A stretch of 64,000 nt of DNA, from NCBI GenBank assembly GCA_002708825.1, contig PAPF01000023.1, positions 62,001 through 126,000 on the forward strand, in the 5' to 3' direction. The DNA is from Phyllobacteriaceae bacterium. Lineage in GTDB: Bacteria; Pseudomonadota; Alphaproteobacteria; Rhizobiales; Rhizobiaceae. Shown piece by piece: positions 18,135 to 18,861 of this stretch. Positions within the stretch are counted from its first letter, which is position 1. Every line of letters starts with the position of its first letter. Position numbers and translations under genes: made by a program. Below the pieces are notes generated by a model, which was not told the origin of the DNA, searched no databases, and saw only the letters and a list, made by a program, of their open reading frames with translations.

Positions 18135-18150
18135 TTTTCCCTTGCTTCGG

Positions 18151-18176
18151 CCCGGCAGGCCATGCGGCTTGCCGGG
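18151..18176 (+). terminator. putative intrinsic terminator hairpin downstream of rpmB
   Basis: CCCGGCAGGCC-ATGC-GGCTTGCCGGG (11 bp stem with one G-U), followed by TTCATCATTTC; U-tract weak. Confidence 0.5.
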
Positions 18177-18208
18177 TTCATCATTTCCCGCCGGTTTCGG
18201 CCGGCCAG

Positions 18209-18238
18209 CTGGTGGCATCACCCAGGATAAAAAAATGC
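18209..18238 (+). ncRNA. candidate preQ1-I-type riboswitch pseudoknot at the yhhQ start
   Basis: CTGG(18209-18212)/CCAG(18222-18225) P1; loop GCAT(18215-18218) complementary to ATGC(18235-18238), which includes the ATG; A-rich tail between; downstream gene is a queuosine-precursor transporter. Confidence 0.5.
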
Positions 18239-18861
18239 GTATGTCGATACGTTCCCTTCTGCCTTTCGTGGCCGCCATGGCGGCTGTCGTCGCCGTTTCC
18301 AACATCCTCGTGCAGTATCCGTTCGCCCATTTCGGGCTGGACGAGATCCTCACCTGGGGCGCCTTTACCTATCCCGTCGCCTTCCTCGTCAACGACCTGA
18401 CGAACCGCCGTTTCGGTGTGGCCGCCGCCCGCAAGGTGGTGCTGGCGGGCTTCGTGCTTGCCGTTCTCCTCTCGGTCTGGCTGGCGACACCGCGCATCGC
18501 CATCGCCTCCGGCTCGGCCTTCCTGGTGGCGCAACTGCTCGATACGGCGGTGTTCGACCGTCTGCGCCGGACGGCCTGGTGGCGCGCGCCGCTCATCTCC
18601 ACCCTGCTCGGCTCGATGATCGACACGGTCATCTTCTTCGCCATCGCCTTTGCCGCGCGCTTTGCCTTCCTCGATGCCGCCTTCGGCTTGGAAGACGGCT
18701 CGCTGGCGTTTCCGGTCGGTTTCATGGGTGCGCAGGTCCCGCTCTGGGTGTCGCTCGCCATCGGCGATTTCTGCGTCAAGATCGCCGTCGGCCTCGTCAT
18801 GCTGGCCCCCTATGGCGCGCTTCTGGCCCGGCTCAAGCCGGTGGCTCCGGAAGCCGCCTGA
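18235..18861 (+). CDS. yhhQ: queuosine precursor transporter (VUT family, YhhQ)
   Basis: MRMSIRSLLPFVAAMAAVVAVSNILVQYPF...LTWGAFTYPVAFLVNDLTNRRFG; LLGSMIDTVIFFAIAF. Confidence 0.9.
   Translation: MRMSIRSLLPFVAAMAAVVAVSNILVQYPFAHFGLDEILTWGAFTYPVAFLVNDLTNRRFGVAAARKVVLAGFVLAVLLSVWLATPRIAIASGSAFLVAQLLDTAVFDRLRRTAWWRAPLISTLLGSMIDTVIFFAIAFAARFAFLDAAFGLEDGSLAFPVGFMGAQVPLWVSLAIGDFCVKIAVGLVMLAPYGALLARLKPVAPEAA

Follow-up and report, generated by a model that had tools for sequence, protein, structure and literature searches.

A preQ1-I-like pseudoknot on the yhhQ start codon in a family of alphaproteobacteria: a probable translational riboswitch derived from type III

Can a riboswitch use the start codon of the gene it controls as one strand of its own ligand-gated helix? 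The question is raised by the leader of a gene in a 64,000-nucleotide stretch of a Phyllobacteriaceae genome (contig PAPF01000023.1; hereafter, the window), for which a sequence-only reading had proposed a pseudoknot of the preQ1-I type. The site, GCCAGCTGGTGGCATCACCCAGGATAAAAAAATGCGTATG, lies on the forward strand, and the proposed coordinates of CTGG/CCAG, GCAT/ATGC, AGGA, and ATG were all confirmed when rechecked. The first helix (P1) pairs CUGG (18209–18212) with the complementary CCAG (18222–18225), and the second helix (P2) pairs GCAU (18215–18218) with AUGC (18235–18238), i.e., the start codon and the first base of codon 2. These strands are connected by L1 (18213–18214), which is UG in the window and UU in most relatives, L2 (CAC, 18219–18221), and L3 (GAUAAAAAA, 18226–18234). 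The Shine–Dalgarno (SD) sequence AGGA (18224–18227) is located 7 nt before the ATG, with its first half within P1. The ATG at 18235 begins a 208-codon ORF ending at 18861 on the forward strand. Matches to PF02592 (90.1 bits) and TIGR00697 (104 bits), both above the cut-offs, identified it as yhhQ, the proposed target, which encodes a queuosine precursor transporter (Vut_1).

The pseudoknot layout alone is unremarkable; conservation and covariation lift the site above chance. A loose version of the layout (a 4-bp P1, CAT in the loop, and ATG 6–12 nt after P1) occurred at 36 of the 2349 ATGs on both strands of the window (1.5%), and P1 was predicted to be weak (−3.5 kcal/mol). The pattern CTGGTNNCATNACCCAGGATAAAAAAATG, with three or fewer mismatches, was found in 343 of the 398 genomes of the window's family, nearly always at a single site, and the reversed pattern was found in none of them. 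None of 384 alphaproteobacteria from outside the family had the pattern. In tblastn searches, yhhQ lay downstream of the motif at 134 of 135 loci, and the remaining fragment also matched yhhQ. Related yhhQ leaders diverged freely in the part preceding CTGG, while the motif was nearly fixed. When the start-codon form (GGTTCCATCACC, a spacer, and AATG) was sought elsewhere in the phylum, 17 matches were obtained in 399 genomes, of which only one, in a genome of the same family (G067), had an A-rich spacer; judging from the matched strings, the other 16 look like chance occurrences.

The 151 distinct leaders fell into three loop classes: TTC-CAT (n = 74), TG-GCAT (n = 64, including the window), and TG-CCAT (n = 13). 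The base after the ATG was C in 64/64 TG-GCAT leaders and G in 13/13 TG-CCAT leaders, and in the TTC-CAT class it was A (42), C (17), or T (15). A fourth P2 pair, either G-C or C-G, therefore occurs exactly where L1 is UG. The second codon of TG-GCAT leaders specifies Leu, Arg, Gln, or Pro. Over the YhhQ tree, no change was counted at its first base, against at least 11 at the second base and at least 14 at the third. The loop class changed nine times on this tree, and the independent pairs (three to five) never ran in the opposite direction, their number being too small for a sign test to reach 0.05. In P1, two compensatory variants were found in relatives, CTAG/CTAG (L158) and CCGG/CCGG (L144). 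Across 65 aligned leaders, the pseudoknot pairs were present in 95% of cells, compared with 23–45% for slid controls, and the covariation score exceeded those of all 500 shuffles, although kinship among leaders can inflate this score. Three of the four P2 pairs are invariant within the family and thus carry no covariation signal.

These comparisons bear out the proposed H-type layout, with conservation in 343/398 genomes and covariation in both helices, and they support both the position of the start codon within P2, with CAU/AUG throughout the relatives, and the overlap of the SD with P1. In this comparative sense, the evidence demonstrates the pseudoknot, its location on the start codon, and its association with yhhQ. 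The expectation that GCAT/ATGC would remain complementary in relatives held: CAU/AUG was universally kept and the fourth pair covaried (G18215 with C18238), whereas the G18215–C18238 pair itself was limited to the window's subgroup. A simple hairpin, GGTG-GCAT-CACC, had been suggested as an alternative source of the local symmetry; it was not conserved and had no covariation support, and was rejected.

The P2 ATG was in the yhhQ frame at 127 of 134 loci and +1 out of frame at seven (L161, L243–L246, L253, and L254), six of which belong to one genus (two of them to one genome) and one to another. At these loci, the upstream AGGA is gone (CCAGCC, with AGCC in the place of the SD), and ATGGA(G) places GGA(G) before a downstream in-frame start, a position suggesting that GGA(G) serves as the SD. 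The CCAU/AUGG helix was retained at all seven loci even though the AUG is out of frame, indicating that the complementarity is maintained at the RNA level and does not simply follow from the presence of a start codon. With GGA(G) as the putative SD, the switch would be able to close on the SD instead. In these lineages, the expression platform appears to have been switched and the aptamer retained.

The yhhQ leader of E. coli is itself a preQ1-I riboswitch of type III whose crystal structure has been solved (PMC10622847; reviewed in PMC11625349), and it reads TTGGG-TTC-CCT-CAC-CCCAA...AAAAAGG. Its P2 consists of C9-G30, C10-G29, and U11-A28; A27, directly before P2, contacts preQ1, the specificity cytosine, the L1 uridine, and the P1-closing guanine complete the pocket, and U7 and C8 are also contacts (PMC10622847). 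The commonest leader in the window's family, CUGG-UUC-CAU-CAC-CCAG-GAUAAAAAA-AUG, agrees with this switch (GGG-UUC-CCU-CAC-CCC...AAAGG) in L1, L2, and register and differs in P2 by a single exchanged pair. Replacing C10-G29 with A-U turns AGG into AUG, so that P2 closes on the start codon (CAU/AUG) and not on the SD (CCU/AGG). The two also share the target gene, the H-type pseudoknot, the UUC-NNU-CAC register (in most relatives), an AC preceding the 3′ strand of P1, an A-rich L3, and an adenine just before P2. By position, G18212 matches G5, U18213 matches U6, C18221 matches the specificity cytosine (role as in PMC10622847), and A18234 matches A27. U18213 was invariant across the 151 leaders, for which the search pattern required that U, and in alignment A1; C18221, the last base of L2, stood directly before the P1 3′ strand in every aligned leader; and L3 was 9 nt long in 148 of 151 leaders and A-rich in all, with a conserved adenine before P2. 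The single-stranded positions of L1, L2, and L3 were conserved as strongly as the helices, as expected for a ligand pocket. Unlike in the E. coli switch, P1 here has 4 bp, with the SD overlapping its 3′ strand, and in the window's subgroup, UG replaces UU, G occupies the U7 position, and the C8 position is used in a 4-bp P2 extending into codon 2. None of the 74 UUC-class leaders has a G after the ATG, a base that could pair with the loop C corresponding to the ceiling of the E. coli pocket.

In terms of class traits, the window has those of preQ1-I (an H-type pseudoknot, the specificity cytosine before the P1 3′ strand, and an A-rich L3 with an adenine before P2), and of those of type III, it has the position upstream of yhhQ. 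The UU in L1 atop P1 is replaced by UG in the window and occurs in 74 of the 151 relatives. The pyrimidine-rich loop of E. coli (UUCCCUCAC) corresponds to UUCCAUCAC in most relatives and to UGGCAUCAC in the window, whose subgroup has purines in the loop. In place of AAGG (the SD), the P2 3′ strand is AUG(C), with GGA(G) as the putative SD at the seven loci only. Rfam scans of the window, its leader, and the leaders of 18 relatives gave no match (E ≤ 10), nor did RF00522 over the whole window genome, so the check suggested by the sequence-only reading gave no Rfam assignment to preQ1-I. However, at the same threshold, Rfam also missed the E. coli type III leader, which has been validated by crystallography; RF00522 is therefore an unsound test for the subtype, and its miss is uninformative. 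A covariance model built on the 65 leaders found the window and the diverged leader L144 and did not detect the E. coli leader. Neither Rfam nor this model joins the E. coli leader with those of the family, so that homology between them, as opposed to convergence, is likely rather than certain. Two other systems share parts of the design. The type II preQ1-I switches of T. tengcongensis and B. subtilis resemble it in their H-type pseudoknot, in the AC at the specificity base, and in an A-rich L3, but differ in their larger loop, their queC operon or queT targets, and their use of partial SD burial or termination (PMC11625349). The SAM-II element of metA in S. meliloti, also a rhizobial alphaproteobacterium, has a predicted ligand-closed pseudoknot at the ribosome-binding site, but its ligand and aptamer differ, its AUG comes after the aptamer, and the study addressed the SD (PMC9373788).

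From these sequence comparisons, we consider it highly probable that the leader is a preQ1-I-type riboswitch acting on translation, a type III derivative that shuts off yhhQ when the precursor is plentiful. We infer the ligand (preQ1), the direction of control, and the pocket geometry, with repression by preQ1 proposed by analogy with the E. coli precedent. PreQ1 would dock between P1 and P2, where it would be read by U18213, C18221, and A18234. Docking would lock P2, whose 3′ strand comprises the start codon and the first base of codon 2, and would steady the 4-bp P1, whose 3′ strand carries half of the SD, with L3 lying along P1. Since the stretch from the SD to the start codon is the 3′ half of the aptamer, the ribosome would have access to neither in the bound state. 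In the absence of ligand, the weak P1 and the 3–4-bp P2 would open, the ribosome would enter, and YhhQ would be made.

Three other explanations were weighed. In the UG-loop subgroup to which the window belongs, if not more widely, the same pseudoknot and start-codon occlusion might respond to a ligand other than preQ1, for example preQ0, queuine, or a different 7-deazaguanine. The altered U7 and C8 positions in this subgroup, both of which are contacts in the E. coli pocket, and the import by YhhQ of preQ0 as well as preQ1 (PMC10622847) are consistent with this reading, but the nucleotides by which class I switches read their ligand (U6, G5, the specificity C, and A27) have matching bases here, and for preQ0 in particular, the window genome shows no QueF, so the known route from preQ0 to preQ1 is absent; overall, we regard another ligand as unlikely. 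Even less probable is a ligand-free cis element, in which the pseudoknot merely lowers yhhQ translation or the leader is the site of an RNA-binding protein or a small RNA: P1 is short and preQ1 binding is argued by analogy, but the register closely matches that of the validated preQ1 switch of E. coli yhhQ, and the loops are conserved like the helices, as a pocket would be. Finally, the SD, spacer, and AUG do form part of the motif, and the loose layout arises by chance at 1.5% of window ATGs, but a DNA operator, or conservation of a ribosome-binding site and N-terminal codons mistaken for a pseudoknot, is highly implausible because it leaves unexplained why CTGG and CAT are conserved, why changes in P1 are compensated, why G-C and C-G are exchanged with differing codon-2 amino acids, and why CAT/ATG is retained where the ATG is out of frame, and because the interleaved arms do not form one dyad.

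A preQ1-responsive switch on yhhQ would suit the queuosine physiology of the window genome, in which tgt, queA, and queG scored well above the cut-offs (on contigs C40 and C10, with tgt and queA adjacent on C40). In the same genome, queC and queF were not detected above the cut-offs, with only 21–27-bit matches. This combination suggests that the organism probably relies on imported precursor, i.e., that it is a queuosine-precursor salvager. Some motif-bearing members of the family do carry queC and queF, which means that the switch is not confined to salvagers.

The element is, in our assessment, a new preQ1-I variant in which start-codon occlusion takes place inside the aptamer. No published description of it was found in the literature searched; the alignments of the 2014 study by McCown, which reportedly defined type III, lay outside this comparison. 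We also think it likely that the leaders constitute a preQ1-I subtype shared across the family: the start codon would serve as the P2 strand that the ligand gates, the pairing would constrain the first base of codon 2, and the platform would have flipped between start codon and SD in a few lineages with the pseudoknot unchanged. The preQ1 control modes reviewed to date, namely SD occlusion, docking, and termination, all leave the start codon unused (PMC11625349). In the present case, the SD-closing and start-codon-closing forms of the same aptamer are one compensated base pair apart, and with the few lineages that show the SD form again, they make up an evolutionary series in which a change of expression platform can be followed. 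The family would add hundreds of rhizobia, agrobacteria, and Brucella relatives to the likely carriers of a preQ1 switch, one that RNA family searches miss and that is testable with RNAs of approximately 36 nt. Symbiosis in S. meliloti reportedly requires queuosine synthesis (PMC3568095).

Fifteen leaders were read from family genomes that have yhhQ without a match to the pattern. Six carried small variants (CAAC in L2, a shorter L3, or CCAGCCC), one (L144) was a diverged copy with CCGG/CCGG as P1 and its ATG in the yhhQ frame, one (L150) was a decayed copy, and in seven no copy was found. The motif was lost or decayed and yhhQ kept in L149, L153, and L156, from a genus (g91) with genomes of approximately 1.5 Mb, and in L150, from another genus (g7). 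The loss in small-genome relatives is possibly linked to altered precursor use, by analogy with that reported for Bartonella (PMC11570991).

Upstream of the switch, and outside it, rpmB (encoding L28; 17841–18134, forward strand) is a conserved neighbor, found on the same strand 31–201 nt upstream at 85 loci. In the region 18149–18205, a GC-rich hairpin 3′ of rpmB (18149–18178, forward strand), probably the rpmB terminator, stands shortly before the switch, and a terminator-like hairpin directly abuts the switch in many relatives. In the window, the palindrome CCAGCTGG at 18205–18212 offers the CTGG of P1 a competing partner just upstream, a feature that most relatives lack.
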